A stretch of 34,605 bases of DNA from contig JAJUHI010000004.1 of NCBI GenBank assembly GCA_029267955.1, positions 1 through 34,605 on the forward strand, in the 5' to 3' direction. Numbering within the stretch: position 1 is the first letter of the stretch; each line of letters begins with the position of its first letter. A program made the position numbers and the translations under genes. Of this stretch, positions 3,273 through 32,442 are shown in pieces. Origin of the DNA: Sporobacter termitidis. Lineage in GTDB: Bacteria > Bacillota > Clostridia > Oscillospirales > Oscillospiraceae. The notes beneath the pieces are model-generated. The model did not search any database and was not told the DNA's origin. It was given only the letters and a program-made list of their open reading frames with translations.

Positions 3273-3293
3273 GCGCGCGCGATAAAATTTAAG

Positions 3294-3330
3294 CAGCCCG
3301 ACGCCGTTGACGGTGTCGGGCTGTTATTTT
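3294..3330. terminator. Bidirectional intrinsic terminator between convergent genes
   Basis: CAGCCCGACgCCG-ttga-CGGtGTCGGGCTG stem (3294-3323) followed by ttatttt; lies between the epimerase (+) and rnfB (-). Confidence 0.8.
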
Positions 3331-3341
3331 GTCTATCTTGC

Positions 3342-4163: not shown

Positions 4164-4181
4164 TGAGCCATCTCCTCCTTT

Positions 4182-6887: not shown

Positions 6888-8206
6888 TGGACCTTCGCCT
6901 CCTTCCCGGCTTTCTGTTTATCCTGATAGCTTTTGAGCATGGGCTTGGAAAGCTTCATCACCTGCACCAGCCGCCGCTTCGCCGGACAGACAAAGGCGCA
7001 ACAGCCGCACTCCATGCAGAGATTGACTTTATACGTCTCCAACAGCTCCGGCTTTTTCAGCTGATACGCGGTTTCAATGTTCAGTGGCATCAGCTTCATC
7101 GGACACGCCTTGACGCATCGGCCGCAGCGGATGCAGGGCGTCTCTTCCGGCAGCGCCGCGTCTTTTTTGTTAAAGGCCAGGACGTCGTTGGTGTTTTTTA
7201 AAACGGGCACGCTGTCGTCCGGCACGGCGATGCCCATCATCGGGCCGCCGTACAGAATCTTTTCCGCGCCTTCCAGCCCGCCGCAGAACTCAAACAGATC
7301 TTTAATCGGCGCGCCGATGGGCGCGATGACGTTTTTCGGTTCTTTCACGGCGGAGCCGTCCACCGTGACGCATTTTTCAATAAGGGGCATGCCCGTCTTG
7401 ACGTACCGCGCGATGGCCGCCAGGGTCGTGACGTTGAGGACAACAACGCCCACATCCAGCGGCAGCTTCCCTTCCGGGACAATCCTGCCGGTGATGCTGT
7501 ATATCAGGACCTTTTCGCCGCCCTGCGGATAGAGCCCGGGCAGCTCGAACACTTCGACGCCTTCCGTCTTTGCGGTCAGGTCCTTCATAACCCGGATGGG
7601 CTCCGGCTTGTTTTTCTCAATCCCGATGACGATCTTTTTCCCGAAGAATTTCCGCAGCAGCCCGATGCCCTCGGCCACAAAGTCGGTTTCATCCAGCATG
7701 GTGCGCGTGTCGGAGGTGATATACGGCTCGCACTCCGCGCCGTTTATCAGGATATAGTCAACCTTGTCAAGCTCTTTGACCGTCAGCTTCACCGCCGTCG
7801 GGAATCCGGCCCCGCCGAGCCCAACGACGCCGCTGTCCCTGACCGCCTGCAAAAACTCATCCAGGTTGGTCACCGCCGGCGGCTTTAGCCCCTCCCAGAG
7901 CGTCTGTTGTCCGTCGGACTCGATGGTTATTGCCGTGGTCTTCTGACCGGCCGACGTTATAAAATCGCCGACGCTTTTGACCTTGCCGGAGACGCTGCTG
8001 TAAACCGGCGACGAGACAAAGCCCGCGGCCTCGCCCACGAGCTGGCCCACCGCCACCTGGTCTCCGGCTTTGACCACCGGTTTTGCCGGCGCGCCGATGT
8101 GCATGGACATCGGAAGCACGATTTCCTTTGGCAGCGGCAGCCTTTCCGGCTTGCTTCCGGCTGTATTCTTACGGTGCGGCGCGTGGACGCCGCCGAGTCT
8201 TCTCAT
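6884..8206 (-). CDS. rnfC: Rnf complex subunit C
   Basis: LPKEIVLPMSMHIGAPAKPVVKAGDQVAVGQLVGEA, GLGGAGFPTAVKL, CIRCGRCVKACPMKLMP. ATG at 8206 preceded by ggggaga is preferred over the ORF-track start at 8257. Confidence 0.93.
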   Translation of the reverse strand: MRRLGGVHAPHRKNTAGSKPERLPLPKEIVLPMSMHIGAPAKPVVKAGDQVAVGQLVGEAAGFVSSPVYSSVSGKVKSVGDFITSAGQKTTAITIESDGQQTLWEGLKPPAVTNLDEFLQAVRDSGVVGLGGAGFPTAVKLTVKELDKVDYILINGAECEPYITSDTRTMLDETDFVAEGIGLLRKFFGKKIVIGIEKNKPEPIRVMKDLTAKTEGVEVFELPGLYPQGGEKVLIYSITGRIVPEGKLPLDVGVVVLNVTTLAAIARYVKTGMPLIEKCVTVDGSAVKEPKNVIAPIGAPIKDLFEFCGGLEGAEKILYGGPMMGIAVPDDSVPVLKNTNDVLAFNKKDAALPEETPCIRCGRCVKACPMKLMPLNIETAYQLKKPELLETYKVNLCMECGCCAFVCPAKRRLVQVMKLSKPMLKSYQDKQKAGKEAKVQ

Positions 8207-8253
8207 AGCATTGTCTCCCCTCTCCCCGAGTCTTGTAGGATGCTTACACGCAC

Positions 8254-8282
8254 TCAATAATCATATCGCTGTTTTTTGTCAA
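8254..8282 (-). promoter_or_regulatory. Putative sigma-A promoter of the rnf operon
   Basis: Minus strand TTGACA - 17 nt - TATTGA, about 50 nt upstream of the preferred rnfC start. Confidence 0.55.
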
Positions 8283-11400: not shown

Positions 11401-14400
11401 CCTGCGGGAAGGGCTATTGGAACTTAATGAGACGGCTCTGGCGTCAAAAGCCGACACGCTGCTGAAGGCGATGAGCTTTACGCCATTGTTTGACAAGAAG
11501 CGACAGCTGTTTTATATCGGCTGGGACATTAACGCCGGCGCGCCCACCCAGGGGTGGTACGACCTTCTGGCCTCCGAGGCGCGGCAGACCAGCTATATCG
11601 CCATCGCCCGGGGCGATATCCCCAGAAAGCACTGGCGACGGCTGGGCCGATCCTTAGTTGCCAAGGACGGATACCGGGGCATGGCCTCCTGGACGGGGAC
11701 AATGTTTGAATACCTGATGCCGGAGCTTTTACTGCCCTGCTACCAAAATTCGCTCATCGACGAGAGCCTGCGTTTTTGCCTGTACGTCCAGAGAAAGCGC
11801 GCCGAAGGGTACCCCTGGGGCATGTCGGAAAGCGCCTTTTACGCCTTTGACCACACATTGAGCTACCGGTATAAGGCCCACGGCGTCCAGCGCCTTGCCC
11901 TCAAGCGCGGCATGGGCCGCGAGGCGGTGGTGTCGCCCTACGCCACCTTCCTTGCCCTGCCTTTAAATCCGAAGGCAGCGATCCAGAACCTCAAGCGCCT
12001 GATGAAGCTCGGCATGGAGGGGCGGTACGGCCTGTATGAGGCGGTGGACTTCACCCCCAGCCGGGTGCGCAGCGCCAGCGGAAAATATGAGATTGTCCGG
12101 ACCTATATGGCCCACCACCTGGGCATGAGCATCGTGGCCATCGACAACGCCGTGAAAAACGGCATCATGCAGCGCCGGTTCATGCGGGACCGGGAGATGG
12201 CCTCCTTTGCCGAGCTTTTACAGGAGAAGGTGCCGGTGGGCGGGATCGTCCTGCGGCAGCCGCCCCGGGACGTGCCGGAAAAGCCCGTCCGCGCCGCCTC
12301 GGCCGACTGGGTGTTCCGGACAACCGCCGTGGATTACAGAAATCCGCGCTGCACGCTGCTGGGCAACGGCGCGTACACCGTTATCGCCGCCGAAACCGGT
12401 CAGACCAGCTCCTTCTGGAACGGCGTGGCCCTCACCCGTACCTCCTTTGACCAACTGGGGCCCGACGCGGGCATGTCTTTCTTCCTCAGCTGCGGCGACG
12501 ACATTGTCTCCCTGCTCCCCTCGCCCATTTTCGACAGAAACGTCCACTATTCCTGCGAGATGACGGGCGCCTTCTGCCGGATTGACGCCAAGAGCGGCAG
12601 TCTTTCTTCCTCTATGACCGTCTGCGTCCCCGAGGACGAGGCCGGCGAAAAGCGGGTTGTCGAAATTTCCTCCGGCGTGCCGCGGGAGGCCGAGCTCATC
12701 TGCTACTTTGAGCCCGTCCTGGCGCAGCAGTCGGATTACGACGCCCATCCGGCCTTTTCCAAGCTCTCTCTGGAATCGGACGTCATCGACGGCGCGGTGG
12801 TCTTCCGTCGGCGGCCCCGGGCCCGGGGCCGCGGCATCGCCCTGGCCTTCGACGCCGACAGGCCCTTTGCCTTTGACACCTCCCGGGAGGCGGCGTTAGG
12901 CCGCGGCGGCCTGTTGTCCCTGCGGCAGTATCTGCTCCGGGAGCCCGGTACGACAACCGGCGCGGTGCTGGACCCCTGCGTCATGGTGCGGCTGAAGCTG
13001 CACCTGACGCCGGACGCCCCCTGCCGGGTCAGCTTCGCCCTGACCACCGCGTCCACCACCCAGGCCGCGGCCGCCGCGGCAAAACGGATACTGCAAAACG
13101 GTGAAAGGCCCGGCATATCCCGCTTAGATGAGACGGCCCAGCGTTTAAAGCTGACCGGCGAGCAGATCGAACGGGCCATGGCGCTGCTGCCGGCGCTGGT
13201 TTACCCCTCGCCGGACCGGGTCATCGACCCGCCGGCGGCCGCCGCTCTTGAAAAAGGGCAGAAAAGCCTCTGGTGCCTGGGCATTTCCGGCGACCTGCCC
13301 ATCATCGCCGCCGTCATTGAGGCCGAGGAGGATATCGAAGGCGGCAAGACGCTGATTCCGCTGCACCGGTTTTTATCGGAAAACGGCGTCGCCTTCGACC
13401 TTGTTTTCCTGGTCCGCGGCGGCGGCGACTACCGGAACACCTTACAGGACAAGGTGATGCAGGCGCTGCGGGAGTACGACCATGACACGCGGGTCGGCGC
13501 CCGGGGCGGCGTGCATCTGGCGGATATGGCGGCCGAAGGCGCCGAGACGGTCCGCGCCGTTGCGGTCTTATCCTATACCGGCGGCCGGCCCGTCATCGTC
13601 GCCCCCCGCCACGACACGACCGGACCCCAGCCCCGCCAGCTGTACGGCGTCAATCAGAGCCAGCCGCTACAGTATTGGTACAACGACGACAACAGCTTCA
13701 GCTTTAATATCCGGGGCCAGCTGCCCTATAACGCCTGGAGCCACATGCTGGCAAATGAGGACTTCGGCTATCTGGCAACGGACGCCGGCACCGGGCACAT
13801 GTGGCACCGCAACGCCCGGGAGAACAAGCTCAACAGCTGGCTCAACGACAGCCTTGCCACCGTTGGGACGGAACGGCTGGAGCTTTTATCCGGCGGCGAG
13901 GGCACGCCGGGCGGAGAGAAGATATCCCTTTTCGCTGCGCCCGACGGCTATGACTGCCGCGTCACCTACGGCTTCGGCTGGGCGGAATGGAAAAAAACGA
14001 TCGGCGGCGTCGAGTATACAACGACGGCTTTTGTGCCCCGCGATGTGCCGGCGCGTGTTTTCATCATCGAATCCTCGTCGCCGGACCCCTTTGAGGTCGC
14101 CTACGGCACGGAGCTTGTCATGGCCCCGGACCCGGAGGACGCCGTCTATGTGACCACCTCGCGGACCGGCGACGTCATCTCCGCGCGCAACGCCTACAAC
14201 GCCGACTTTCCTGACACCGTGTTCCATCTGACGGCGTCGTCGCCGGAGAAGGCGTTTACCTGCTCCCGCACCAGCTGGCTGTCCGGCGTCTACGACGGCT
14301 GGACCGGCACGGGGATACTCCCATGCGCGGCGGCGGTGTATATGGCGGAGAAAGCCCTGGTCATCGTCACGGGCTGCGACAGCCCCGAGGCGCTCCGGCA

Positions 14401-15934
14401 GCTAGCTAACCCCGAAACGGCGCGGAAAAAGCTGCGGGAGACCGTCGATTATTGGCAGGACGTCACCGGCAAGCTGACGGTCAACACCCCCTGCGAGCAC
14501 CTCAACCGCTATATCAACGGCTGGGCCGTCTATCAGGCCCTCTGCTGCCGCGTCTACGGACGCAGCTCGCTGTATCAGAGCGGCGGCGCCTACGGCTTCA
14601 GGGACCAGCTGCAGGACATCACGGCCCTTGTGGACGCCGTTCCGGAGGCGGCGCGGCAGCACCTGATCCGGGCCGCCCGCCATCAGTTTTTGGAGGGCGA
14701 CGTCCAGCACTGGTGGCACCCCGTCAAGAGCGACGGCTTCCACGGCGACAAGGGCGTCCGGACCCGCTGCAGCGACGACCTGCTCTGGCTGCCCTACGCC
14801 CTGTGCGTCTACGCCGAAAAGACCGGCGACATGTCCATCTTTTCAGAAAAGGCGGGCTATATCGAATCACAGCCCCTGGGCGAGGACGAGGACGAGCGCT
14901 ACGAGCAGCCCAGATTGTCGGAGAAGACCGAAACGCTCTTAGAGCACGCCGTCCGGGCCGTGGACCTTGTCCTAAAGCGCGGCACCGGCCGCCACGGCCT
15001 GAACCTGATGGGCACCGGCGACTGGAACGACGGGATGAATCTGGTGGGGGCCGGCGGCGCCGGCGAAAGCGGCTGGCTGACCTGGTTTACCGTTGTGACG
15101 GCGACCAAAATGGCCGCCGTCTGCCGGGCGTACCAAAACCCGGGGGCCGCCGCCCGGTTTACGGAAGCCGCCGAAACCCTGAAAAAGGCCGCCGAGGCCG
15201 CCTGGGACGGCGACTGGTTCATCCGCGGCTACTACGACGACGGCACGCCCCTGGGCTCCTGCGCGTCGGAGGAGTGCCGGATCGACTCCATTGCCCAGAG
15301 CTTTGCCGCCCTGGCCGGTGCCGAGGCCGGCAAGACGCGGACGGCGCTCTCCTCCGCCGTGGACAGGCTTTTCGACCGGGAAAACCGCATCGTCCGGCTG
15401 TTCGACCCGCCCTTTGCCAAGGGCTTGACAACCCCGGGCTATATCAAGGGCTACAGCCCCGGCTTCCGGGAAAACGGCGGACAATACACCCACGGGGCCA
15501 TCTGGCTGGCCATGGGCCTGTTTATCGCCGGAATGACAGATTTAGGCTGGGAGCTGTTGGAGGCGCTCCTGCCCCAAGGCCGGCCCAACGAGGTATATAG
15601 GACCGAGCCGTATGTGCTGGCGGCGGACGTCTACACAGCGGCCGGCCACGTGGGCCGCGGCGGCTGGACCTGGTACACCGGGGCCGCCGGCTGGTTTTAC
15701 CGGGTGGCTGTTGAAAACCTGCTGGGGCTGAACCTGAAAGACGGCAGGCTGCATGTTTCTCCCGCGCTTCCTTCCGGCTGGGACGGCTATGAAGCCGTCT
15801 GGCGGAATAACGGAGCCATATACCGCATCACCGTCCGGGACGGGCGCGTCACGGTCTGTCAGGACGGCGGGCCGGACACCGGCGGCGGGGTGATCGTCGA
15901 CGCCGACGCAGAAATGACGGAATTTCAAAAATAG
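8462..15934 (+). CDS. Cyclic beta-1,2-glucan synthase-like protein (GT84-type + glucoamylase-like + GH94-like domains), 2490 aa
   Basis: N-terminal TM pair, ITLDNDTRLNAGAARELIGAALHPLNQP, RMHRWTRGDWQSMPW, C-terminal MGTGDWNDGMNLVG (GH94 catalytic-type) and GQYTHGAIWLAMG; RBS caggagga. Confidence 0.9.
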   Translation: MSYHDHDNVSAYEDLVRFARETAGAIKIGGRVSPSYTAKTAENNLTLIKSVMKSASAYAEAHVTLPQEIEWLLDNWYIAEREGKSAVFDMKTAPKMNTVANSGKKKRLVVSEAALALVRYGRGCVTSDHIEVFLDAFGDIICLSEAELSYFIPALRLELIAALAGGCRKLKNVIAGGAPEEDLACFLGSLFTSLRFLSGFDASSILENVNRVERTLRCDPAGVYSLMDEQTRFSYRREIAHLAEERGENAFDVAGRILQLARSSNCHVGYYIFTKPLGEAKKARSGALYIGFIILASLFIALLISFWLDQPALSILLLLPVSDFIKNVTDYAVLRFVRPRRIPRLELSGGVPASGKTLCVISLLLTSTEGIRRAAGLLEEYRLANRDAGENLLFGILGDLPDAVSESRPEDEKRVCTAAEEINRLNSAYGGGFFLFTRGRRYNPRDRQYTCWERKRGAILELCRYLRGRDTALGCRAGDASKLSDIVYLITLDNDTRLNAGAARELIGAALHPLNQPAVDDNKGLVTAGYGIIQPRISVDLAAANQTDYTRIFAGQGGIDPYGGMTGDIYQNLFGAGSFAGKGIIHVGAYLACLDGCFPDNTVLSHDLLEGAYLRCGFAGDIELTDGFPAKITTFYDRMHRWTRGDWQSMPWLFRRVKRTDGSKAINHLCQIDRWKIADNLRRSLVPVATFVSLALGMLFYNEDFLWAAGIAVIAAVSHLLITSASGVFSKRHGRVRYQTTIVSGFKGQLLQTVIKLILLPYEAWVCLHAIVTALLRMLVTHRNMLSWVTAADSEKRMKNTLAQVVGKMWPAVFITAALAVLTPFLAARVVGVIWALSPLMVVHLSRDNRKKPSLNPEDKLLLSRFAGDIWRYFDELMTYEDNWLPPDNYQEQPAVGVAHRTSPTNIGLALISALAAHDLGVCTKERAIQVISRLLETMEKLPKWQGHLYNWYDTLTLRVLQPAYVSAVDSGNLAGCLIALREGLLELNETALASKADTLLKAMSFTPLFDKKRQLFYIGWDINAGAPTQGWYDLLASEARQTSYIAIARGDIPRKHWRRLGRSLVAKDGYRGMASWTGTMFEYLMPELLLPCYQNSLIDESLRFCLYVQRKRAEGYPWGMSESAFYAFDHTLSYRYKAHGVQRLALKRGMGREAVVSPYATFLALPLNPKAAIQNLKRLMKLGMEGRYGLYEAVDFTPSRVRSASGKYEIVRTYMAHHLGMSIVAIDNAVKNGIMQRRFMRDREMASFAELLQEKVPVGGIVLRQPPRDVPEKPVRAASADWVFRTTAVDYRNPRCTLLGNGAYTVIAAETGQTSSFWNGVALTRTSFDQLGPDAGMSFFLSCGDDIVSLLPSPIFDRNVHYSCEMTGAFCRIDAKSGSLSSSMTVCVPEDEAGEKRVVEISSGVPREAELICYFEPVLAQQSDYDAHPAFSKLSLESDVIDGAVVFRRRPRARGRGIALAFDADRPFAFDTSREAALGRGGLLSLRQYLLREPGTTTGAVLDPCVMVRLKLHLTPDAPCRVSFALTTASTTQAAAAAAKRILQNGERPGISRLDETAQRLKLTGEQIERAMALLPALVYPSPDRVIDPPAAAALEKGQKSLWCLGISGDLPIIAAVIEAEEDIEGGKTLIPLHRFLSENGVAFDLVFLVRGGGDYRNTLQDKVMQALREYDHDTRVGARGGVHLADMAAEGAETVRAVAVLSYTGGRPVIVAPRHDTTGPQPRQLYGVNQSQPLQYWYNDDNSFSFNIRGQLPYNAWSHMLANEDFGYLATDAGTGHMWHRNARENKLNSWLNDSLATVGTERLELLSGGEGTPGGEKISLFAAPDGYDCRVTYGFGWAEWKKTIGGVEYTTTAFVPRDVPARVFIIESSSPDPFEVAYGTELVMAPDPEDAVYVTTSRTGDVISARNAYNADFPDTVFHLTASSPEKAFTCSRTSWLSGVYDGWTGTGILPCAAAVYMAEKALVIVTGCDSPEALRQLANPETARKKLRETVDYWQDVTGKLTVNTPCEHLNRYINGWAVYQALCCRVYGRSSLYQSGGAYGFRDQLQDITALVDAVPEAARQHLIRAARHQFLEGDVQHWWHPVKSDGFHGDKGVRTRCSDDLLWLPYALCVYAEKTGDMSIFSEKAGYIESQPLGEDEDERYEQPRLSEKTETLLEHAVRAVDLVLKRGTGRHGLNLMGTGDWNDGMNLVGAGGAGESGWLTWFTVVTATKMAAVCRAYQNPGAAARFTEAAETLKKAAEAAWDGDWFIRGYYDDGTPLGSCASEECRIDSIAQSFAALAGAEAGKTRTALSSAVDRLFDRENRIVRLFDPPFAKGLTTPGYIKGYSPGFRENGGQYTHGAIWLAMGLFIAGMTDLGWELLEALLPQGRPNEVYRTEPYVLAADVYTAAGHVGRGGWTWYTGAAGWFYRVAVENLLGLNLKDGRLHVSPALPSGWDGYEAVWRNNGAIYRITVRDGRVTVCQDGGPDTGGGVIVDADAEMTEFQK

Positions 15935-20083: not shown

Positions 20084-20540
20084 CAAACCGGACGGCCGAT
20101 GATGCCCCGTTTGCCCTAGCTTTAAGGCCGGGGCGGACGGGGTGTCGCCGCGTTCGCCGGCGCCTTTGCGCCCCGTACTTAAAGTTTCTTTCAAGCGTAC
20201 GTATAAAGAAAACGCCATTACTTAAAATAAGCTTCGTGCACCATGCACAACAGCTTACCCCCGCGTGTCGGAATTTCGCCTTTTATTTCGGTATTTTTGT
20301 ATGCTATCAGCGGTAAAATAAACCGATTGCCGAAGAAATTGCCTCATAAGGTATAGTTTTTGTATTTTTTAATGGCATTTTTGGAGTATTGAATGAAAGT
20401 GCCGTATAACAAGGCTTTTCCGCCCTTTCTAATATTTACTTCCCGGCTTTTGGATGATAGAATCATCTGAGCCCGGAGGTTTAATTATCCTGAATAGTTA
20501 CAATTAAGTCATGGTGCACCTTTATACGAAAGGAGTCATC

Positions 20541-21464
20541 ATGATGAAAGTAACTGACATTATGGCAAGGCGCATGGCGTTTTCCTTCGAGCTGTTTCCG
20601 CCGAAAACGGACGCCGGCATGGAAAAACTGATCGGGCCCGGCGGCGTGCTGGACCAGCTGTGCACGATGAGGCCCGACTATATCTCCTGCACCTACGGCG
20701 CCGGCGGCGGGAATGTGGGCAAGAACCTGGAGGTTCTCGACGCCATTAAGCAAAAGACCATCGGCGTCACGCACTTCACCTGTATCGGCAACACCCGCGA
20801 GGGTATCCGCGACCAGCTGCAGACCTATTTGGACCACGGTGTCGACCATATCCTCGCCCTGCGCGGCGACCTGCCCTTCGGCTGGACCGGGACAGGCGGT
20901 GACCTGCGCTACGCCACGGAGCTTGTCAAGTTTATCCGCGACACCTTCGGCGACAAGTTCACCATCGCCGTGGCCGGCTCCCCCGAAGGCCACATCCAGT
21001 GCCGCAGCCTGGAGGCCGACATCTCCTTCCTCAAGCAAAAGCAGGACGAGGGCGCGGACTTTATCATGACCCAGCTGTGCTGGGACATGGACCAGTTCCG
21101 GTACTGGCTGGACGCCATCCGCGCCGCCGGCGTCACCATGCCGGTGGATGTGGGCATCATGCCGGTGCTGGACGCGGCCGCCACCATCAACATGGCCCTC
21201 TCCAGAAACGGCTGCGTCATGCCCCGCCCCCTGTGCGAGATCATCTCAAAACACTGGATTTTCCCGAACCCCTTCGCCCCCGGCGAATCCGAGGAATCCA
21301 TCGCCGCCAAAAAAGCCGCCTTCAAGGAGGCGGGCCTCGAATATACCATCAGACTCATCGACGAATACCGCGTCTGCGGTATCCAGGGCATCCACCTGTA
21401 CGCGCTGAACAAGTACGAGGATGTGGCCCGCCTTGTGGCCGAGTCCGGCATCAAGGACCTTTAG
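20541..21464 (+). CDS. metF: Methylenetetrahydrofolate reductase
   Basis: MAFSFELFPPKTDAGMEKL, DYISCTYGAGGG, HFTCIGNTREGIRDQL, ILALRGDLP; RBS aaaggag just upstream of ATG 20541. Confidence 0.93.
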   Translation: MMKVTDIMARRMAFSFELFPPKTDAGMEKLIGPGGVLDQLCTMRPDYISCTYGAGGGNVGKNLEVLDAIKQKTIGVTHFTCIGNTREGIRDQLQTYLDHGVDHILALRGDLPFGWTGTGGDLRYATELVKFIRDTFGDKFTIAVAGSPEGHIQCRSLEADISFLKQKQDEGADFIMTQLCWDMDQFRYWLDAIRAAGVTMPVDVGIMPVLDAAATINMALSRNGCVMPRPLCEIISKHWIFPNPFAPGESEESIAAKKAAFKEAGLEYTIRLIDEYRVCGIQGIHLYALNKYEDVARLVAESGIKDL

Positions 21465-21541
21465 TCGGGAAACTGGCCGTCGTGCGGCTTACCGCCGCAC
21501 CGGCCGTTCAAATACAAGTCACATTTTAAGGAGGAAACCGC

Positions 21542-23299
21542 ATGCTTGACCCGACCAAATACAAAGACTGGCAAATCGCTGAAGAAGCCGAAAAGACTCT
21601 TCCCCCCGTGGATTATTTCCGTGAAAAGATGGGCCTTCTGCCCGATGAAATTATCCCGTACGGCAAGACCCCGAAGCTCGATTTCATTAAAATCATGAAC
21701 CGCCTGAAGGATAAGCCTGACGGCAAGCTCATCGAGGTCACCGCCATCACCCCCACCCCGCTGGGCGAAGGCAAGTCCACCACCTCCCTTGGCATCATTG
21801 AAGGCCTCGGCAAGCTGGGTAAGAACGTTGGCGGCTGCCTGCGTCAGCCCTCCGGCGCCCCCACCATGAACGTCAAGGGCACCGCGGCCGGCGGCGGCAA
21901 CGCGCTGCTGATCCCGATGACCGAGTTCTCCCTCGGCCTCACCGGCGATATCAACGACATCATGAACGCCCACAACCTGGCCATGGTCGCTCTCAACGCC
22001 CGTATGCAGCATGAGCGCAACTACACAGACGAGGAGCTGGCGCAGCGCGGCCTTAAGCGTCTGGACATCGACCCCGAGCGCGTTGAGTGGGGCTGGGTTA
22101 TCGACTTCTGCGCCCAGGGCCTGCGCAACATCCGGATCGGCATGGGCGGCAAGAACGACGGCTTTGAGATGAACTCCAAGTTCTCCGTGGCCGTCTCCTC
22201 CGAGCTGATGGCCATCCTCGCCATCGCCCGCGACCTCAGAGACCTCCGCGAGCGCATCAGCAAGATCGTTCTCGCCTACGACAAGAAGGGCAACCCCGTC
22301 ACCACGAGAGACCTTGAGGTCGACGGCGCAATGACCGCCTGGATGCGCAACACCATCAACCCGACCCTCTGCTACACCATCGAGCATCAGCCCTGCTTCG
22401 TGCACGCGGGCCCCTTCGCCAACATCGCCATCGGCCAGTCCTCCATCATCGGCGACCGGCTCGGCCTGAAGCTGTTCGACTACCATGTCACCGAGTCCGG
22501 CTTTGCCGCCGACATCGGCTTCGAGAAGTTCTGGAACGTCAAGTGCCGCCTGTCCGGCCTCAAGCCCAACGTCTCCATCATCGTTGCCACCATCCGCGCT
22601 CTGAAGATGCACGGCGGCGGCCCGGCTGTCGTGCCCGGACGTCCCATTCCCAAGGAGTACACCGAGCAGAACCTGGAGCTGCTTGAGAAGGGTACGGAAA
22701 ACCTGTTCCACCATGTCAACAACGTCCTCAAGTCCGGTATCAAGCCCGTTGTCTGCATCAACAAGTTCTACACCGATACCGACGAGGAAATCGCTCTGCT
22801 CAAGAAGCTCTGCGCCGAGAGAAACGTCCGCTGCGCTCTGTCCGAGCACTGGCAGTACGGCGGCGAGGGCGCCAGAGAGCTGGCCGAGATGGTCGTCGAG
22901 GCCTGCGAGGAGCCCGTGGACTTCAAGTATCTCTATCCGCTGGAGATGCCCCTGCGTCAGCGCGTCGAGCTCATCGCCAAGGAAGTTTACGGCGCCGACG
23001 GCGTCGACTGGGCGCCGCTGGCCATCGAGAAGGCCGAGCGCTTCGAGAGCGACCCGAAATACAAGAACTATTCCACTATGATGGTCAAGACCCACCTGTC
23101 CCTGTCCCACGACCCGACCCTCAAGGGCGTGCCCAAGAATTGGCGCCTGCCCATCCGCGACATCCTCGAGTACGGCGGCGCTGAATTCCTCTGCCCGATG
23201 GCCGGCACCATCAGCATGATGCCCGGCACCGGCTCCGACCCCGGCTATCGCCGCATCGACGTGGACGTCGAAACCGGCAAGGTTTCCGGCCTGTTCTAA
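21542..23299 (+). CDS. fhs: Formate--tetrahydrofolate ligase, divergent form resembling the C1-THF synthase type
   Basis: P-loop [72 protein letters not shown] aaggagg. Confidence 0.92.
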
Positions 23300-23314
23300 C
23301 TTTGTCTCCTGAAC

Positions 23315-23345
23315 GCTGTGCCGCCGCGAAAAGCGGCGGCACAGC
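23315..23345 (+). other. Perfect 13-bp intercistronic hairpin between fhs and fchA
   Basis: GCTGTGCCGCCGC-gaaaa-GCGGCGGCACAGC, not followed by a T tract. Confidence 0.7.
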
Positions 23346-23436
23346 GGGCCGCGCCATTTGGCATGGCCTATTTACAACGCGAATAGAATGCAATGTATAA
23401 ACGTTGCGTGTCCGCGAATCAGAAAGGAGAAAACAG

Positions 23437-24057
23437 ATGTCATTTGTCACTGTCAGCTGCGCGGAGTTTGTCGACGTGCTGGCCTCAAAAGCCCCCGTCC
23501 CCGGCGGCGGCGGCGCTTCCGCCCTGGTGGGCGCCATCGGCGCGGCGCTGGGCAATATGGTCGGCAGCCTGACCGTCGGTAAAAAGAAGTACGCCGACGT
23601 CGAGGCCGATATCATCGCCCTCATGGAGAAGACCACCGCGCTGCAAAAGGAGCTTCTGCGCCTTGTGGACCAGGACGCCGTCGTTTTTGAGCCGCTGTCC
23701 AAGGCTTACGGCATTCCGAAGGATGACCCCAACAGAGAAAAGATTATGGAAGAGGCGCTCAACGCCGCCTGTTCCGTTCCGCTGGATATCATGCGCTGCT
23801 GCGCCAAGGCCATCGACCTTGTCGCCGAATTTGCCGAAAAAGGCTCCGCCCTGGCCATCTCCGACGCCGCCGTCGGGGCCGTGTTCTTAAACGCCGCGCT
23901 CCAGGGCGCCAGCTTTAACGTCTTTATCAACACAAAATCCATGGTCGACCGCCAGAACGCCGAGAAGCTGGAGGCGGAGGCCGACGCCCTGCTGAAGGAA
24001 TACACGCAGAAGGCCGAGAGCATCGCCGCCGGCGTCTGCAAGAAATTAAGGAGCTGA
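23437..24057 (+). CDS. fchA: Methenyltetrahydrofolate cyclohydrolase (FTCD/FchA family)
   Basis: APVPGGGGASALVGAIGAALGNMVGSLTVG; ISDAAVGAVFLNAALQGA. ATG at 23437 with RBS aaaggag. Confidence 0.9.
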   Translation: MSFVTVSCAEFVDVLASKAPVPGGGGASALVGAIGAALGNMVGSLTVGKKKYADVEADIIALMEKTTALQKELLRLVDQDAVVFEPLSKAYGIPKDDPNREKIMEEALNAACSVPLDIMRCCAKAIDLVAEFAEKGSALAISDAAVGAVFLNAALQGASFNVFINTKSMVDRQNAEKLEAEADALLKEYTQKAESIAAGVCKKLRS

Positions 24058-24062
24058 TTACT

Positions 24063-24914
24063 ATGGCCGCTACGCTTTTGAAGGGCAAGGACGTTGCCGA
24101 TGCGCTGAACGCGAAAATGTCCGCCGATGTCGAGGCCTTAAAAGCCAAGGGCGTCACGCCCACGCTGGCCATCCTGCGCGTCGGCGAGAGACCGGACGAT
24201 ATCTCCTACGAAAAGGGCGCCATGAAGCGCTGCGAGTCCGTCGGCGTCGCCGTGAAGAACGTCGTGCTCCCGGCCGACGTTACCCAGGATGTGCTCATGA
24301 AGAGCGTCCAGGATCTCAACGAGGACAAAAACGTCCACGGCGTTTTGATTTTCCGTCCCCTGCCCAAGCATCTGGATGAGGAGGCCGTCCGCAATGCCCT
24401 CAAGCCCGAAAAGGACATCGACGGCATCACCGACGGTTCCCTTGCCGGCGTTTTCACCGGCAACGGCAACGGCTATCCCCCCTGCACGGCCCAGGCCTGC
24501 ATGGAAATCCTGGATTATTACAATATAGACTGCAAGGGCAAGCGCGCCGTCGTCATCGGCCGCAGCCTCGTCGTCGGCAAGCCCGCGGCTATTATGCTGA
24601 TGGGCAAAAACGCCACCGTCACCGTCTGCCATACGAAGACGGTCGACATGCCCAGCGTCTGCAGGAACGCTGAAATACTCATTGTTGCAGCCGGCAAAGC
24701 CAATGCCGTTACTAAAGATTACCTTTCTCCCGGACAGGTTGTCGTGGACGTGGGTATCAATATGACCGACGAAGGGAAGCTTTGCGGCGACGTGAAGTTC
24801 GACGACGCGGAGCCCATTGTCGGCGCGATTACGCCCGTTCCCGGCGGCGTGGGCACAGTCACAACATCGGTGCTTGTCTCGCATGTTGTGGAAGCTGCAA
24901 AAAAAACATTGTAA
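24063..24914 (+). CDS. folD: Methylenetetrahydrofolate dehydrogenase FolD, probably lacking cyclohydrolase activity
   Basis: PEKDIDGITDGSLAGV, VVIGRSLVVGKPAAIMLM, VVDVGINMTDEGKLCGDVKFD, ITPVPGGVGTVTTSVLVSH. Confidence 0.93.
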   Translation: MAATLLKGKDVADALNAKMSADVEALKAKGVTPTLAILRVGERPDDISYEKGAMKRCESVGVAVKNVVLPADVTQDVLMKSVQDLNEDKNVHGVLIFRPLPKHLDEEAVRNALKPEKDIDGITDGSLAGVFTGNGNGYPPCTAQACMEILDYYNIDCKGKRAVVIGRSLVVGKPAAIMLMGKNATVTVCHTKTVDMPSVCRNAEILIVAAGKANAVTKDYLSPGQVVVDVGINMTDEGKLCGDVKFDDAEPIVGAITPVPGGVGTVTTSVLVSHVVEAAKKTL

Positions 24915-24933
24915 AAAAGGGAGCAAATATGTT

Positions 24934-25764
24934 ATGATTATTATTGCTGAAAAATTGAACGGCTCCATACCTTCCTGCGGAAAGGCCATTGCCGAGCGCG
25001 ACGCCAACTATATCCGCGACTTTGCCAAGAAGCAGGCGGATGTTATCGACGGCGTCGAAGCCGGCGGCTTCATCGACGTGTGCGCTTCCGTCAAGGAAAA
25101 CGAATTTGAGACAATGAAGTGGATGCTGGACCTTGTTAAAGAGGTCACCGACTGCCCCATCTCGGTGGACAGCCCCGACGTCCGCGTCTGCGTCCAAGGC
25201 ATGCAGTACCTGGAAGAAAAGTACGGCGACAAAAAAGGTCTTTTCAACTCCGTGTCCGGCGAGGGCGACAAATTTGACGTGGCTTTCCCGGTCCTGGCCA
25301 AGAACAACTGGGACGTCATGATTCTGCTCTGCGACGATACGGGCATTCCCAAAACCGCCGCAAAGCGCATCGAGGTCTTTGAAACCGCGATGGCGAAGGC
25401 TAAGCAATACGGCATCGCAGAAAACCGCATCCACATCGACCCCCTGGTCGAGATGCTGTGCACCTCCGAAGACGGCATCGCCATGGTCGTCGAGGTCATG
25501 ACCCACATCAAGAAGAATTACCCGAAGGTCCACATCTCCGGCGCCGTTTCCAACATCTCCTTCAACCTGCCGGCCCGCAAGATTGTCAACATCGCTTTCA
25601 CCGTTCTGGCTATGAACGCCGGTATGGACAGCGCGGTTCTCGATCCGCTGAACCAGGACCTCATGGGCGTCATCTTTGCCACCGAGGCGCTGCTGGGCCG
25701 CGACGATATGTGCATGGAGTATATCGGCGCTTACCGTCAGGGCATCTTCGGCCAGAAAAAATAG
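24934..25764 (+). CDS. Methyltetrahydrofolate:corrinoid methyltransferase (DHPS-fold family)
   Basis: IIIAEKLNGSIPSCGKAI, LFNSVSGEGDKF, IDPLVEMLCTSEDG, ISGAVSNISFNLPARKIVNIAF. ATG 24934 with RBS aaaaagggagc; ORF-track start at 24817 lies inside folD. Confidence 0.88.
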   Translation: MIIIAEKLNGSIPSCGKAIAERDANYIRDFAKKQADVIDGVEAGGFIDVCASVKENEFETMKWMLDLVKEVTDCPISVDSPDVRVCVQGMQYLEEKYGDKKGLFNSVSGEGDKFDVAFPVLAKNNWDVMILLCDDTGIPKTAAKRIEVFETAMAKAKQYGIAENRIHIDPLVEMLCTSEDGIAMVVEVMTHIKKNYPKVHISGAVSNISFNLPARKIVNIAFTVLAMNAGMDSAVLDPLNQDLMGVIFATEALLGRDDMCMEYIGAYRQGIFGQKK

Positions 25765-25827
25765 CATTGCAGTTCTAGAGCGAGCGTCGCTTTATTATCA
25801 TTTTTCAAATTACAGGAGGTTTATCAC

Positions 25828-26469
25828 ATGTCAAAAATCAAGGAAGTCGCGAATGCCGTAGAGTTCGGCAAAGTCAAGCTTATTGAGGGTATTGTTCAGG
25901 AAGCTCTTGATGCCGGTGAAGACCCCAACGCCATTCTCAACGACGGCATGATCGCCGCTATGAGCGTCGTCGGCGCCAAGTTCCAGGCCAACGAGATCTT
26001 TGTCCCCGAAATGCTCGTCGCGGCGAAGACGATGAAAAAGGGCGTCGAGATCCTCAAGCCCCACCTGGCTGGCAACAGCGTCGGCAAGCACGGCAAATAC
26101 ATCATCGGCACCGTTGCGGGCGACCTGCACGATATCGGCAAAAACCTCGTTGCGCTGATGATTGAATCCGCCGGCTTCGAAGTGATCGACCTTGGCGTTG
26201 ACGTACCGGCCGAGAAGTTTGTTGAAGCGATCAAAGCCAACCCCGACTGCAAGGTCGTCGGCGCTTCCGCTCTTCTGACCACCACCATGGATTCCCTCCG
26301 CAACACCGTTCAGACGATGATCAACGCTGGCTGCAAGAACCAGGTCAAGATCATGGTCGGCGGCGCTCCCATCACCCAGGCCTGTGCCGACGAGATCGGC
26401 GCGGACGCTTACACCCCCGACGCCGGCGCTGCCGCCGTCAAGGCTGTCGAGCTGGTCACCAAAGGCTAA
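25828..26469 (+). CDS. Corrinoid (B12-binding) protein of a methyltransferase system
   Basis: GTVAGDLHDIGKNLVALMIESAGFEVIDLGVDVPAEKF (DxHDIGK B12 motif), ASALLTTTM, KIMVGGAPITQ; RBS caggagg. Confidence 0.95.
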   Translation: MSKIKEVANAVEFGKVKLIEGIVQEALDAGEDPNAILNDGMIAAMSVVGAKFQANEIFVPEMLVAAKTMKKGVEILKPHLAGNSVGKHGKYIIGTVAGDLHDIGKNLVALMIESAGFEVIDLGVDVPAEKFVEAIKANPDCKVVGASALLTTTMDSLRNTVQTMINAGCKNQVKIMVGGAPITQACADEIGADAYTPDAGAAAVKAVELVTKG

Positions 26470-26600: not shown

Positions 26601-27848
26601 TTATACGTCCTTGCCCGACACATCGCCGAAGTAGTTGTTGCGGAAACGCTTGGGCGAGACGCCGGTCTCTTTTTTAAACACCTTCGTGAAGTAGCTTTGG
26701 TCCTTAAAGCCGCACTGGCTGGAGATGATGGCCAGGCTCACGCCGTCCTCCAGGAGCATCTTCTTGCTCTTTTCCACCCGGACCTTCGTAATATACGCGG
26801 TGAGGCTCATGCCGGTCTCCTGCTTGAAGATGCTGGAGAGATACGACTTGCTCAGGTAGACCTCCTTGGCCAGGGAGTCTAATGTCAGCTTTTCAGCGCA
26901 GTTTTTCTTTATGTAGTTGGTGATCTTGAAGACCACGTCCGAGTGCTTGACCTGGGCCAGGTCAAAGGCCTGGACGATAAACCGGCGGACGATGTCCGAA
27001 ATCCAGAAGGCCAGCTGGTCCACGTCGCTGTAGGATTCAATCTGAAGGATAAAGTTCTCCGACAGCCGGAAGGTCTCCGTCGGGTCGGCGCCGGCCTCGA
27101 TGGTGGCCCGGGAGAGAATGACCAGGAGCTCCAACAGCCGCGCCTTGATGGCGTTGATGTCAAAATTGGAGTAGACGTAAATGTGCGCCAGCATCTCGTT
27201 GAGCATCTGCAGCGCTGAGTTCTTCTCCCCGCGCAAAACGGCAATCCGGAGGTCCTTCTCAAACTGCAGCAGCATGTCGGCGGACTTTTTGTCCACGTCC
27301 TCGTAATAGTCCTTGGCCACATAGATCTCCTTGAGGATCTTTTCCTGATCGTAGAGGAGGTTCTGCAGCTTCTGATGTTCCACGCCGGAGATGTGCGCGG
27401 CGACCACCGAGAGGATTTCCGATATGTGCTGGACCTTTTTTGTCGAATACTCGCTCAGTTGGGACACGGCCCACGCCATTCCCGGTTCCGGCAGGTCCGC
27501 CAGAACGTCCTGCGTCTCCCCCATGACAAAGGGCCCCAGCACCAGGCCGCCGGCTAGTGAGCCGGAGCTAGAAGAAATGGAGGCGGCGATGAAGGTGAGC
27601 CCCATCGGACAGTAATAGATGTACTTCCCGTTCCAGCGGTGCGCCTCATGGCAGCCGTACAGGTGCGTCTTCAGCTCGTCTTCCTTATAGGCGCAGTGGG
27701 CGCAGAAATTCTTCAGCTCGTCCTCATGTAAAAGACACGAGGGCGCGTTTTCCGGGACGTCCACGATTTTACACCCGATATCAAGCAGTTCTGAGAAGTG
27801 CTTCTGATATTTTTCACATTTTTCCTGAAGCTGCGGCGTCATCGGCAT
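26601..27848 (-). CDS. AraC-family regulator with N-terminal PocR-type sensory domain
   Basis: N-term CLLHEDELKNFCAHCAYKEDELKTHLYGCHEAHRWNGKYIYYCPMGLTFIAASI; C-term HTH-AraC LTLDSLAKEVYLSKSYLSSIFKQETGMSLTAYITKVRVEKSKKMLLEDGVSLAIISSQCGFKDQSYFTKVFKKETGVSPKRFRN. ATG 27842 is an alternative start. Confidence 0.88.
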   Translation of the reverse strand: MPMTPQLQEKCEKYQKHFSELLDIGCKIVDVPENAPSCLLHEDELKNFCAHCAYKEDELKTHLYGCHEAHRWNGKYIYYCPMGLTFIAASISSSSGSLAGGLVLGPFVMGETQDVLADLPEPGMAWAVSQLSEYSTKKVQHISEILSVVAAHISGVEHQKLQNLLYDQEKILKEIYVAKDYYEDVDKKSADMLLQFEKDLRIAVLRGEKNSALQMLNEMLAHIYVYSNFDINAIKARLLELLVILSRATIEAGADPTETFRLSENFILQIESYSDVDQLAFWISDIVRRFIVQAFDLAQVKHSDVVFKITNYIKKNCAEKLTLDSLAKEVYLSKSYLSSIFKQETGMSLTAYITKVRVEKSKKMLLEDGVSLAIISSQCGFKDQSYFTKVFKKETGVSPKRFRNNYFGDVSGKDV

Positions 27849-28059: not shown

Positions 28060-28704
28060 TCATTTTCTTTTCCCGGCGCAGACGGCGTAAGCCACTTCCG
28101 CCGCTTCAACGGCGTCTTCGGTGTAGATATCCGCGCCGATATGGGCGCAAAAGCCCTGCGTGACCGGCGCGCCGCCAATCATGATTTTAACCTTGTCTCT
28201 GTAGTTGTGCGCGCTGAACACGTTGACAACGTGGCGCATTTCCTCCATTGTCGCCGTCAAAAGCGCCGAACAGCAGACGACATCGGCGTTGTTTTCAACG
28301 GCCGCCTGGTAAAACGCCTCCGCCGGCACGTCCACGCCCAGGTCAATAACCTTCAGGCCCTTGCTCTCCAGCATGATATGGACGATGTTCTTTCCGATAT
28401 CGTGCATGTCGCCCTTGACGGTGCCGAGCACGGCCACGCCGGTCGCGCCCTGCTCTTCTCCCTGGAGATAAGGCCGCAACACCTGCAGGCCCGCGTTGAT
28501 GGCCCGCGACGCCACAAGCACCTGGGGTACAAAGACCTCATCTGTCTTAAATTTCTCCGCGACGAGGCGCATGCCGCGCAGCAGGCCATCATCCATGATT
28601 ACCCGCGGCGGTATGTTTTCGTCCAGCGCCTGCAGGACGGTCTCCTTCACTTTGGACGCTCGACCCTTTTGTAGATAATCACTGATTCTCTCCAGCGTGG
28701 TCAT
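28060..28704 (-). CDS. Second corrinoid (B12-binding) protein of methyltransferase type
   Basis: GTVKGDMHDIGKNIVHIMLESKGLKVIDLGVDVPAEAF, CSALLTATMEEM, KIMIGGAPVTQGF. ATG at 28704 with ggggagg RBS. Confidence 0.93.
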   Translation of the reverse strand: MTTLERISDYLQKGRASKVKETVLQALDENIPPRVIMDDGLLRGMRLVAEKFKTDEVFVPQVLVASRAINAGLQVLRPYLQGEEQGATGVAVLGTVKGDMHDIGKNIVHIMLESKGLKVIDLGVDVPAEAFYQAAVENNADVVCCSALLTATMEEMRHVVNVFSAHNYRDKVKIMIGGAPVTQGFCAHIGADIYTEDAVEAAEVAYAVCAGKRK

Positions 28705-28940
28705 GTGATCCTCCCCGCGCCATTTGCTTGATTTTAACATTAATTTCAGCATTTTTCAACGAAAACATCGTTTGGGTATCCAATACGCGGCGGACTTTGG
28801 GTTATCTTGCCGCGGGTTCGGCTTCCATGCATGTTGACGATATTAGGTATCCTGCTACGTATGTATATCGGCTATTTTGACGAATGCTTCAGGATAAATT
28901 ATGCAGATTTGCCAATATAGCAATGTTTACAGTTTGTTCA

Positions 28941-29037: not shown

Positions 29038-30567
29038 ATGAAAAAGGCACTCGCGTTTGTCATTGCCCTGGTCTTACTTGCGGCAATGACGCCCCTTGCG
29101 CTGGCGGTGGACGCGACAGTCACCGTCAGTGTCAGCGTAGACGGTCAGCTTGTCGTCGCCGCGCAACCTGTGACAGTCAGCGACCTGACCGTAAACGGCG
29201 TTTTGAAGGCAGCCCACACCGCGTATTATTCCGGCGGAGAAAGCGGCTACAGCGCCGAAATTGACCCCATTTGGAACATGTACATGATCAAAAAGACATG
29301 GGGCATCACAGCCACACCCTACGTCATCGTCAACGGCGCGCCGCTGGGCTCGGCAAGCCTCCAGGCCACTGCGGATGTGGCGCCTGTCAAGGCCGGCGAC
29401 AATATTATTGTTTCCATATCCAGCGACCCAACCAAAACCGCCCGGGCAATTGCGCTCACGGCCGACGTGGCCGACGGCAGCGCAACTGTCACCGCCACGG
29501 AATGGGTCCTGGATTTTACTACGTTCACCTATAAGTCCTCACCCTGCGCCAACGCCAAGGTGATCGACCCCGCCACGGGCGCTGAGCTGGGCACAACCGA
29601 CGCTCAGGGCGCCGTTGTCGTCAACGCTTCTGGGATCGCGGCCATCGAGGGCCTGGCGGCGATTCCCGTTGACGGGTCCTCCGCTTCCACCTCAGCCGCC
29701 GCGCCGGCCCCCGCCGCTCCCGCTGCCGCCGCCCCGGCCGCGCCCGCAGCGCCCGCAGAGACCTCCGAAGAAGGCGTTACCGTTTACTTCACCGTCTGTC
29801 TGGACGGCGTTCTCCAGGTTGCGGCGCAGCCGGTTACGGTACATACCCTCAACGGCGACGCCGTTTTAAGGGCCGGGCACGCCAAGTACTACTCCGGCGG
29901 CGAAGCCGGTTATACCGCCGCCATAGATCCCATGTTCAACATGTATCTGATCCAGAGGGTCTGGGGCGTTCAGACAATCCCCACCTTTATCCTCAACGGC
30001 TATCCCCTGGGCACCGGCGACAACAAGGCGTATATCACCGTTGACTCAATCCCGGTGAAGGAAGGCGACAACGTCGTTATCGTCATCTCCACCCTCGTCG
30101 GCACCGCCCCCATCCCCAACGTGGCTTTGACAAGAGGCGACGACGGCACCGTCAAAGCGACCAACTGGACGTTTGACCCCACCACCTATACCTACAGCGA
30201 CACCCCCTATGCCAATGCCGATATCGTCGACGCACAGTCGGGCGAAGTGCTTGGCACCACCGACGCTCTCGGCAGGGCCAAGCTGAAAAGCGAGCCCGCC
30301 TCCGGCGTTATCGCCATTGCCGGCCTCACCGCTCTTGCGGTGGGCGGCGATATACAGCCCTTTACCCCCATTTCCGACAAGTACACACCTCCCGCCCGCG
30401 ATTACTCTGTTTTCGGCGGCCCGGACGGCAGACAGCTGCTCTGGATAGTCATATTCGGCGTTGGCGGAGCCATCCCCCTGGGCGCGATTGTCCTGCATGC
30501 GCAGCGCAAGGAGCTGAAAAACTACGGCGTAAAATTCGTGGACCCTGTCGTCGGCAAGAAGAAATAA
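29038..30567 (+). CDS. Secreted, C-terminally membrane-anchored protein with two homologous extracellular domains
   Basis: Signal peptide MKKALAFVIALVLLAAMTPLALA; repeats ...YYSGGESGYSAEIDPIWNMYMIKKTWGI... and ...YYSGGEAGYTAAIDPMFNMYLIQRVWGV... joined by an Ala/Pro linker; C-terminal TM LLWIVIFGVGGAIPLGAIVLHAQRK. RBS taggagga. Confidence 0.9.
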   Translation: MKKALAFVIALVLLAAMTPLALAVDATVTVSVSVDGQLVVAAQPVTVSDLTVNGVLKAAHTAYYSGGESGYSAEIDPIWNMYMIKKTWGITATPYVIVNGAPLGSASLQATADVAPVKAGDNIIVSISSDPTKTARAIALTADVADGSATVTATEWVLDFTTFTYKSSPCANAKVIDPATGAELGTTDAQGAVVVNASGIAAIEGLAAIPVDGSSASTSAAAPAPAAPAAAAPAAPAAPAETSEEGVTVYFTVCLDGVLQVAAQPVTVHTLNGDAVLRAGHAKYYSGGEAGYTAAIDPMFNMYLIQRVWGVQTIPTFILNGYPLGTGDNKAYITVDSIPVKEGDNVVIVISTLVGTAPIPNVALTRGDDGTVKATNWTFDPTTYTYSDTPYANADIVDAQSGEVLGTTDALGRAKLKSEPASGVIAIAGLTALAVGGDIQPFTPISDKYTPPARDYSVFGGPDGRQLLWIVIFGVGGAIPLGAIVLHAQRKELKNYGVKFVDPVVGKKK

Positions 30568-30620
30568 ATGGCCGGCTGTCAACCTGACATTATCATTATT
30601 GGGAGGTTATCATAAAGGGT

Positions 30621-32387
30621 ATGAAAAAGCAAAAATTAAGCGAGGTCCTCAAACGGATATGGAAGATGGCCGCGCCGTACTGGACCCAATCCAACGAAAA
30701 ATGGGGAAGCCTCGCGCTTCTAATTGTCAATATCGGCGTTATGGTGCTCAGCAACTTCGCCGGCGTCCGCTTTGTCGTCTGGCAAAGAGACTGGATCAAT
30801 GCCTTTAACAACTATGACGTAGAGGCCTGGAAGCAGAATATTTACGTCTTTCTGCTCATCGGCGCGGCAATGACCTTTACCGGCTCCTTTAATGTCTATA
30901 TTACCGAATGGATTAAAATCCGGTGGCGCCGGTGGCTGACCGCCCGTTATCTCGTCTTTTGGATGGACAACAGCAACCATTACCGGATGCAGCTGACCGG
31001 CAACGAGACCGACAACCCCGATCAGCGTATTCAAGAGGATATCAGGCTGTTTATCGACAACACCTGGACGTACACCTTCTCCCTGGCGCAGAACCTTCTG
31101 TCTCTCGGTACATACCTGGTGATGCTCTGGAACCTCTCCGCCTCCATCCCCCTCATTTTCGGCGGCGTCGACTACTCCTTCCCCGGATACTTTATTGTCA
31201 TCGCCTTCATATGGATTGCAATTACCACAACCATCACCCATAAGATCGGTAAACCTTTGGCCCGGCTCAACTTCAGCCAACAGATGTACGACGGTAACTT
31301 CCGCTTCGCTTTGGGACGTGTCCGGGAGAGTTCCGAGCAGATTGCCCTCTTAAAGGGCGAAGAGGTGGAGCATACCCGCCTGATGACCATCTTCGGCGAC
31401 GCGGTGGCCAACACCTTCCGCCTGATGGGCAGGGGCATGCGCGTGGGTATCACAACCTCGCTGCTCAACTACGGCGACGCCATGATGTACACCCTGCTGC
31501 TGGGGCCCTCCTACTTCTATTACGGCGCCATCCCCGGCTACGGTACGCTAAATCAGATCGCCACCGCCTACCTGAACGTCACCACCGGCCTGAAGTGGTT
31601 CCAGAACTCCTATGTGGGTCTGTCCACCTATGTCGCCGTTATCGACCGTCTCTACGCCTTTAACGACAACTACGAGAAAACGCAAAAGATCTCGGCCGAA
31701 TCCGAGCTGCAGATCACGGAAGCCAATCAGGATGAGATTGAAATCCGGAATCTGGACGTCTATCTGCCCACCGGCGCGCTGCAGATCAGCGCGGATAACC
31801 TGGTGATCCGGAAGGGCGAAAAGATTCTGATCAAGGGCAGAACGGGCGCCGGCAAGACGACGCTGTTCCGCGTCATGGCCGGTATCTGGCCCTTCGGCAA
31901 GGGCAACATTGTCCTCCCGAAAGACAAGCGCGTCATCGTCCTGCCGCAGAAGCCCTACTTCCCCATCGGCACCCTCATCGAAGCCGTCAGCTATCCCGCC
32001 CCCGCCGGCACCTATTCCCGGGAGGACATCCAGAAGGCGCTGGCCGATGTGGGCCTGCACATGCTGGTGGGCAGGCTGGACGAGGTTGGCCACTGGAACA
32101 TGATGCTCTCCGGCGGTGAACAGCAGCGCCTGGGCATCGCCCGCGCCATTCTCTATCAGCCGGAATACCTGTTCTTTGACGAAGCCACGGCCTCCATGGA
32201 CGAACCCTCCGAGCTGGAGCTTTACAACATGCTCCTCGACAGGATGAAGGACACCACCATCGTTTCCATCGGCCACCGGACGTCTCTGGAGCAGTTCCAC
32301 AAGCGGCTGATTGTCGCCGAGGCGCAGCCCGGCGGCGCGTACCGGTTTGTGGACCGGACCGGCACCCACGTCGGCATGGACTTTTAG
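30621..32387 (+). CDS. ABC transporter, fused permease-ATPase, SbmA/BacA/YddA/Rv1819c-type
   Basis: WRRWLTARYLVFWMDNSNHYRMQLTGNETDNPDQRIQEDIRLF family hallmark; Walker A GRTGAGKTTLFRVMAG; signature LSGGEQQRLGIARA; Walker B YLFFDEATASMD. Confidence 0.92.
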   Translation: MKKQKLSEVLKRIWKMAAPYWTQSNEKWGSLALLIVNIGVMVLSNFAGVRFVVWQRDWINAFNNYDVEAWKQNIYVFLLIGAAMTFTGSFNVYITEWIKIRWRRWLTARYLVFWMDNSNHYRMQLTGNETDNPDQRIQEDIRLFIDNTWTYTFSLAQNLLSLGTYLVMLWNLSASIPLIFGGVDYSFPGYFIVIAFIWIAITTTITHKIGKPLARLNFSQQMYDGNFRFALGRVRESSEQIALLKGEEVEHTRLMTIFGDAVANTFRLMGRGMRVGITTSLLNYGDAMMYTLLLGPSYFYYGAIPGYGTLNQIATAYLNVTTGLKWFQNSYVGLSTYVAVIDRLYAFNDNYEKTQKISAESELQITEANQDEIEIRNLDVYLPTGALQISADNLVIRKGEKILIKGRTGAGKTTLFRVMAGIWPFGKGNIVLPKDKRVIVLPQKPYFPIGTLIEAVSYPAPAGTYSREDIQKALADVGLHMLVGRLDEVGHWNMMLSGGEQQRLGIARAILYQPEYLFFDEATASMDEPSELELYNMLLDRMKDTTIVSIGHRTSLEQFHKRLIVAEAQPGGAYRFVDRTGTHVGMDF

Positions 32388-32411: not shown

Positions 32412-32442
32412 AGAAGCCCGGACATCCCGGGCTTCTATTCTT
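32412..32442. terminator. Bidirectional terminator between ABC transporter and rpoD
   Basis: AGAAGCCCGG-acatc-CCGGGCTTCT followed by attcttt; convergent genes. Confidence 0.75.

Follow-up and report, generated by a model that had tools for sequence, protein, structure and literature searches.

A BacA-type ABC transporter that is paired exclusively with a surface protein of predicted beta-grasp fold was found in Sporobacter termitidis and related genomes, and this exclusive pairing is the strongest new fact of the analysis. The surface protein (P0001) and the transporter (P0002) are proposed to form one two-component transporter, for which a corrinoid would be the likeliest cargo and import the likeliest direction (probability roughly 0.48). 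It looks like a machine of two parts, a surface receptor and a BacA-like transporter, that has been unrecorded so far and that probably serves B12-type molecules. The domain repeat, the obligate pairing, the transporter family and the superfamily link to corrinoid loci were all computed.

A two-repeat surface protein is encoded in front of a BacA-type transporter

The window, i.e., the whole stretch of DNA that was analysed, comprises 34,605 nt (GCA_029267955.1, contig JAJUHI010000004.1, positions 1-34,605, forward strand). It belongs to a MAG of 2.64 Mb that is 87% complete (G000). The two genes have the following features:

29038-30567, + strand: P0001, membrane-anchored two-repeat surface protein, 509 aa (open reading frame, repeat comparison, hydropathy, relatives)
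29053-29109, + strand: hydrophobic core of the P0001 signal peptide, residues 6-24, Sec-type (hydropathy)
29110-29679, + strand: P0001 repeat 1, a putative beta-grasp half (29110-29430), then a beta-sandwich half (repeat comparison, predicted structure, Foldseek)
29680-29769, + strand: Ala/Pro-rich linker between the P0001 repeats (sequence)
29770-30351, + strand: P0001 repeat 2, membrane-proximal, of a tree clade exclusive to paired proteins (repeat comparison, tree)
30400-30519, + strand: P0001 anchor, DYS.FGG.DGR, transmembrane helix and basic tail (hydropathy; similar in other paired proteins)
30621-32387, + strand: P0002, BacA/Rv1819c/ABCD-type half-transporter, 588 aa, transmembrane domain and ATPase (open reading frame, family matches, motifs)
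32412-32436, + strand: terminator-like hairpin downstream of P0002 (consensus match only)

Sequence comparison revealed that the two repeats of P0001, 190-194 aa each, are 47% identical. Hydropathy analysis detected a single C-terminal hydrophobic segment (residues 467-485) that is followed by a short basic tail, and with its signal peptide and C-terminal anchor P0001 has the secreted, surface-anchored layout of the transcobalamin-like SLBB clade. The first-pass annotation had described a secreted, membrane-anchored protein of two domains, which was borne out by the signal, the two homologous repeats and the C-terminal helix. P0001 had no match in Pfam and only chance-level matches in NCBIfam and the PDB. 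At the gathering score, PF14478 (DUF4430) matched neither P0001 nor any of the repeat rows, and when the DUF4430 HMM was applied to the source genome, P0001 was unmatched and a sub-threshold match was found on contig C50 only.

P0002 contains the motif DNPDQRIQED as well as intact Walker A, signature, Walker B and H-loop motifs. It matched three families above their cut-offs, namely PF06472 (ABC_membrane_2, 160 bits), PF05992 (SbmA_BacA, 65 bits) and PF00005 (ABC_tran, 64 bits). In a comparison with solved structures, Rv1819c/BacA (6tqe) was the best relative (257.8 bits, E 1.8e-75, residues 70-576), ahead of plant ABCD1 (208 bits) and ABCD4 (150 bits). Judged by sequence, BacA rather than ABCD is thus the closest characterised relative of P0002 among the solved structures, and the full-length similarity upholds the earlier assignment as an Rv1819c-type transporter. 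The motif had also been regarded as a hallmark of the SbmA/BacA/YddA/Rv1819c group. It is present in P0002, but the alignment revealed that NPDQR is common to ABCD4 and it was rejected as a BacA hallmark; because DNPDQRI occurs in ABCD4 too, it marks a wider group.

The transporter gene is always paired with a surface protein gene

The gap between P0001 and P0002 is 53 nt long and has no terminator-like site on the + strand, while such a site follows P0002, which is consistent with co-transcription. The pairing was surveyed in a family sample of 151 genomes. P0002-like ABC proteins (cut-off E<=1e-50) were present in six of these genomes with eight copies, and each of the eight directly follows a co-oriented P0001-type gene, with a gap of 20-58 nt. 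A chance arrangement is excluded because the same gene order recurs in six genomes, and the earlier proposal that the two genes are one unit was supported by this recurrence. P0002-like ABC proteins were absent from 391 further genomes drawn from the class. Taken together, the P0002-like ABC is almost certainly an obligate partner of a P0001-type gene.

The source genome has three pairs, in the window and on contigs C63 and C216, and the latter contig begins with the tail of a further P0002-like ABC. P0001-type domains were found in 13 of the 151 genomes. One of them (G002) has P0001-type proteins without such an ABC, and therefore the reverse dependence, of the surface gene on the ABC, fails. 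Neither gene type was found in the complete genome G098, which belongs to the same genus, and plasmid sequences scanned for the repeat and the ABC yielded no match. Most of the paired surface proteins end alike, with DYS.FGG.DGR followed by a helix and a basic tail, and in the tree the majority of their membrane-proximal repeats group in a separate clade (support 99/96). The exclusive pairing, the shared anchor and the repeat clade of their own indicate that the surface protein acts like a transporter subunit, and P0001 and P0002 would presumably be in physical contact.

Several variants of the surface protein were observed outside the pairs. Lone copies in the source genome are located on C141, with a membrane anchor only, and on C64 (L010:5567-7517); the latter is a one-repeat protein with an LPQTG sorting signal and an adjacent sortase gene, as is a relative in G002 (L051:9234-11429). 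Three-repeat variants are followed by an acyltransferase-3 type gene in G007 (L063:7972-11817), G011 (L066:8137-11854) and G114 (L069:8119-11876), the family having been tested for L063 only. Such a gene is also located downstream of one pair (L009:12070-13398), and a similar one lies beside a related secreted protein on C232 (L013). In several of these proteins (L011:8569-9951, L004:645-2189, L055:6919-8322, L058:8685-10694 and L013:1906-2859) other secreted N-terminal domains, about 110 aa long, stand in front of the beta-grasp repeats or in their place.

The repeat is predicted to contain a transcobalamin-like beta-grasp domain

An AF2 model of repeat 1, built from five sequences (pLDDT 82), has the order strand-strand-helix-hairpin-strand, followed by a beta-sandwich; the confidence is low in the hairpin region. 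This order is the signature of the transcobalamin clade of SLBB domains (PMC1796856). In a separate model of the N-terminal half (107 aa, pLDDT 70.6) the hairpin region is helical, unlike in the full-repeat model.

A Foldseek search of the PDB with the full-repeat model gave nothing significant. With the N-half model, haptocorrin with cyanocobalamin was the first match (E 0.018, probability 0.97), the human transcobalamin beta domain with CNCbl (5np4) was seventh, and the first 50 matches included further transcobalamin chains, interspersed with ubiquitin-like folds. The first-pass annotation had suggested this type of check, and for the N-half of the repeat the ranking agrees with its expectation, but all matches lie above E 0.001 and generic ubiquitin-like folds score too. 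In HH comparisons with DUF4430, a pooled set of repeats scored 21.5 (decoy maximum 18.5) and the distant set 22.1 (decoy maximum 16.2), both at an HH probability of about 10%, while the close set (18.5) stayed below the decoys (19.9). Sequence-profile searches of the PDB with the repeat retrieved only designed repeats and cysteine desulfurases, which were judged to be spurious. On the basis of the models, the repeat very probably has a beta-grasp fold, and the transcobalamin clade is the favoured placement of this predicted domain.

Distant relatives of the repeat are located in corrinoid loci

Distant members of the surface-domain family had E values of about 1e-12 to 1e-6 with the A1 profile, and after one iteration nearly all were below 1e-20. 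Their alignment with the paired domains revealed shared conserved positions, e.g., a W-G pair. A cobalamin riboswitch is located upstream of the distant surface gene on the same strand in three genomes (G127, G101, G031), and in G149 it heads a proBAC-type gene run that contains the surface gene. A search of 381 other genomes of the class, which served as a separate test sample, yielded six relatives, three of which (G228, G322, G246) have an upstream cobalamin riboswitch, in G246 about 770 nt in front of the surface gene. In total, a cobalamin riboswitch heads the distant surface gene or its gene run in seven genomes. As about 56 riboswitch matches were counted among an estimated 27,000 genes of 13 genomes, the association is, by our own estimate, far above chance. 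In G149 the riboswitch (C25:9354-9561) is at the head of a proB-proA-proC-like run, and an S-layer-anchored distant surface gene ends such a run there (L067:4137-9193) and in G072 (L061:4038-9129).

The neighbouring genes gave a similar picture. In G007 the surface gene lies between a cobalamin-assembly gene run, recognised by reading translations, and genes for a toroid protein, a DUF4430 lipoprotein, EcfT (CbiQ) and EcfA. The locus in G011 is alike (toroid, DUF4430, EcfT, EcfA) without the cobalamin-assembly genes, and in G058 the surface gene is followed by a DUF4430 lipoprotein, EcfT and EcfA. In four genomes (G031, G060, G246, G457) a P0001-type repeat and DUF4430 are part of one polypeptide. 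Transcobalamin-like surface proteins in such operons have been predicted to scavenge B12 (Burroughs et al., 2007, PMC1796856). These observations support a superfamily link of the P0001 repeat to corrinoid loci. The resemblance to transcobalamin and DUF4430 that had been noted by eye thus holds at the superfamily level, in the Foldseek ranking and in the loci of distant relatives, but does not extend to a match of PF14478 to P0001.

The pairs themselves are mostly located away from corrinoid genes

The pair in the window has corrinoid-related neighbours, which are listed as context only:

28060-28752, - strand: divergent corrinoid protein, MtgC/MtbC type (family matches)
26601-27848, - strand: P0004, AraC-type regulator with a PocR sensory domain (family matches)
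25828-26469, + strand: second corrinoid protein (family matches)

Family matches confirmed two corrinoid proteins (P0003, P0005), a methyl-THF:corrinoid methyltransferase (P0006) and P0004. Corrinoid methyltransferase genes adjoin only one of the eight pairs, the window copy. About 4 kb separate the C63 pair from a gene of the URO-D family. Seven pairs had enough flanking sequence, the C216 contig being too short, and near the other five no corrinoid genes were recognised. The co-location, used earlier as an argument, is therefore real in the window, but homologous pairs were found mostly away from corrinoid genes, an outcome that the first-pass annotation itself had named as refuting its idea. 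The argument from corrinoid neighbours was therefore not accepted as generally valid, the surroundings of the other pairs being unrelated. No cobalamin riboswitch was found in the window, and none precedes any of the eight pairs; the C63 contig has one 8 kb from the pair on the opposite strand. The corrinoid-uptake context of the distant relatives is thus absent from the paired subfamily at the riboswitch level and mostly at the neighbour level. In the tree, the paired and the LPXTG-anchored domains form one clade (100/98) that is separate from the domains at corrinoid loci, and a change of ligand is possible.

Pair-bearing genomes often have another likely corrinoid importer: G007 and G111 have one of the ECF type with ECF and DUF4430 components, G072 probably has one of the ECF type, and G011 and G114 have riboswitch-linked FecCD permeases. 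The B12-gene inventory of the source genome is partial. Translations read at three loci (L102-L104) revealed cobalamin-synthesis genes behind riboswitches, so that corrinoid import need not be essential there. At L102 (C31) a cobalamin riboswitch (405-622) lies upstream of genes that, by eye, are NifH/NifD-like and nitrogenase-type (1924-5392).

Proposed function and alternatives

In the proposed mechanism, P0001 would be secreted, remain tethered to the membrane through its C-terminal helix and display two transcobalamin-like (SLBB/DUF4430-type) beta-grasp domains for ligand binding, each with a beta-sandwich module. A dimer of P0002 would form a BacA-fold (type IV) ABC transporter, which would receive the cargo caught by P0001 and move it at the expense of ATP. 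We infer the nature of the cargo and the direction of transport: a corrinoid has about an even chance of being the cargo, and import is favoured over export with some confidence. The more specific proposal of a type IV ABC transporter with a dedicated, membrane-anchored corrinoid receptor of tandem transcobalamin-like beta-grasp domains, an architecture beside BtuFCD and ECF, is put forward tentatively.

The nearest rival, which is plausible but distinctly less probable than the corrinoid transporter, is that the same machine moves another hydrophilic cargo, for example a peptide, a glycan fragment or a different cofactor. The clustering of the paired domains apart from the riboswitch-controlled ones, the missing riboswitches, the varied neighbours of the pairs and the other likely B12 importers of the relatives would all agree with this; SLBB domains bind diverse ligands (PMC1796856), and BacA is promiscuous, with a large polar cavity and no obvious high-affinity site (PMC10960864). 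However, the distant relatives that share the W-G pair are located in corrinoid loci, a corrinoid carrier is the first structural match, and corrinoid enzymes adjoin the window copy.

A role in envelope biogenesis, with P0001-type proteins as structural or adhesive surface proteins and an ABC transporter that exports or flips an envelope component, appears rather improbable. Lone relatives that carry LPXTG signals and adjoin a sortase gene (C64, G002) and the acyltransferase-3 gene beside the three-repeat variant (G007, G011, G114) and after one pair (L009) point in this direction, but the paired type is anchored by a membrane helix and not by LPXTG, the ABC falls into the BacA/ABCD group, and the distant relatives are housed in uptake operons. 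Still less probable, and very unlikely by our estimate, is export or sharing of a corrinoid, in which the BacA-type ABC would release it from a B12-producing cell and P0001 would hold it at the surface. The source genome does have cobalamin-synthesis genes, and in liposomes BacA moves cobalamin in both directions (PMC10960864), but binders that are tethered are found more typically with importers, and no corrinoid regulation is visible at the pair.

Comparison with known systems

Human ABCD4 is the lysosomal cobalamin transporter in the transcobalamin route, in which cobalamin is delivered bound to a carrier that contains a beta-grasp domain. BacA and ABCD4 both carry cobalamin, and neither is known to have a dedicated binding protein. 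ABCD4 shares the ABCD-family fold and the DNPDQRI motif with P0002, but its similarity is lower (150 bits) and it is not encoded beside its carrier; the likeness is an analogy. Rv1819c/BacA (6tqe) is, like P0002, a half-transporter of one polypeptide and a known cobalamin carrier, a vitamin B12 transporter of mycobacteria (PMC3603451). In contrast to P0002, which is invariably preceded by a surface gene, BacA has no dedicated surface partner described in the parts of PMC3603451 and PMC10960864 at hand. The transcobalamin-like SLBB proteins (DUF4430, PF14478) of CbiO/CbiQ operons in low-GC Gram-positives are secreted beta-grasp proteins, often surface-anchored (PMC1796856), and distant relatives of P0001 occur in such operons; P0001 differs in being unmatched by PF14478, in the additional beta-sandwich of each repeat, and in having a BacA-type ABC instead of a toroid or ECF partner. 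BtuFCD and the ECF-type B12 importers also combine a binding part with an ATP-driven membrane part, but their folds differ, and relatives with the pair encode such systems separately.

If the proposed corrinoid transporter is real, the obligate transcobalamin-like surface partner would show how a promiscuous transporter can gain specificity, and anaerobic Clostridia would have a transport route that is now missed by annotation, as no family is matched by the surface protein.

Other genes in the window

The window also contains Rnf complex genes (3342-8257, two of them checked) and a methyl-branch one-carbon cluster (20511-26469: MTHFR, Fhs, cyclodeaminase, FolD, methyltransferase, corrinoid protein), which together are an acetogen-like set. 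Between them, a GH94/glucoamylase-type protein of 2490 aa is encoded (8462-15934), probably a cyclic glucan synthase or phosphorylase.
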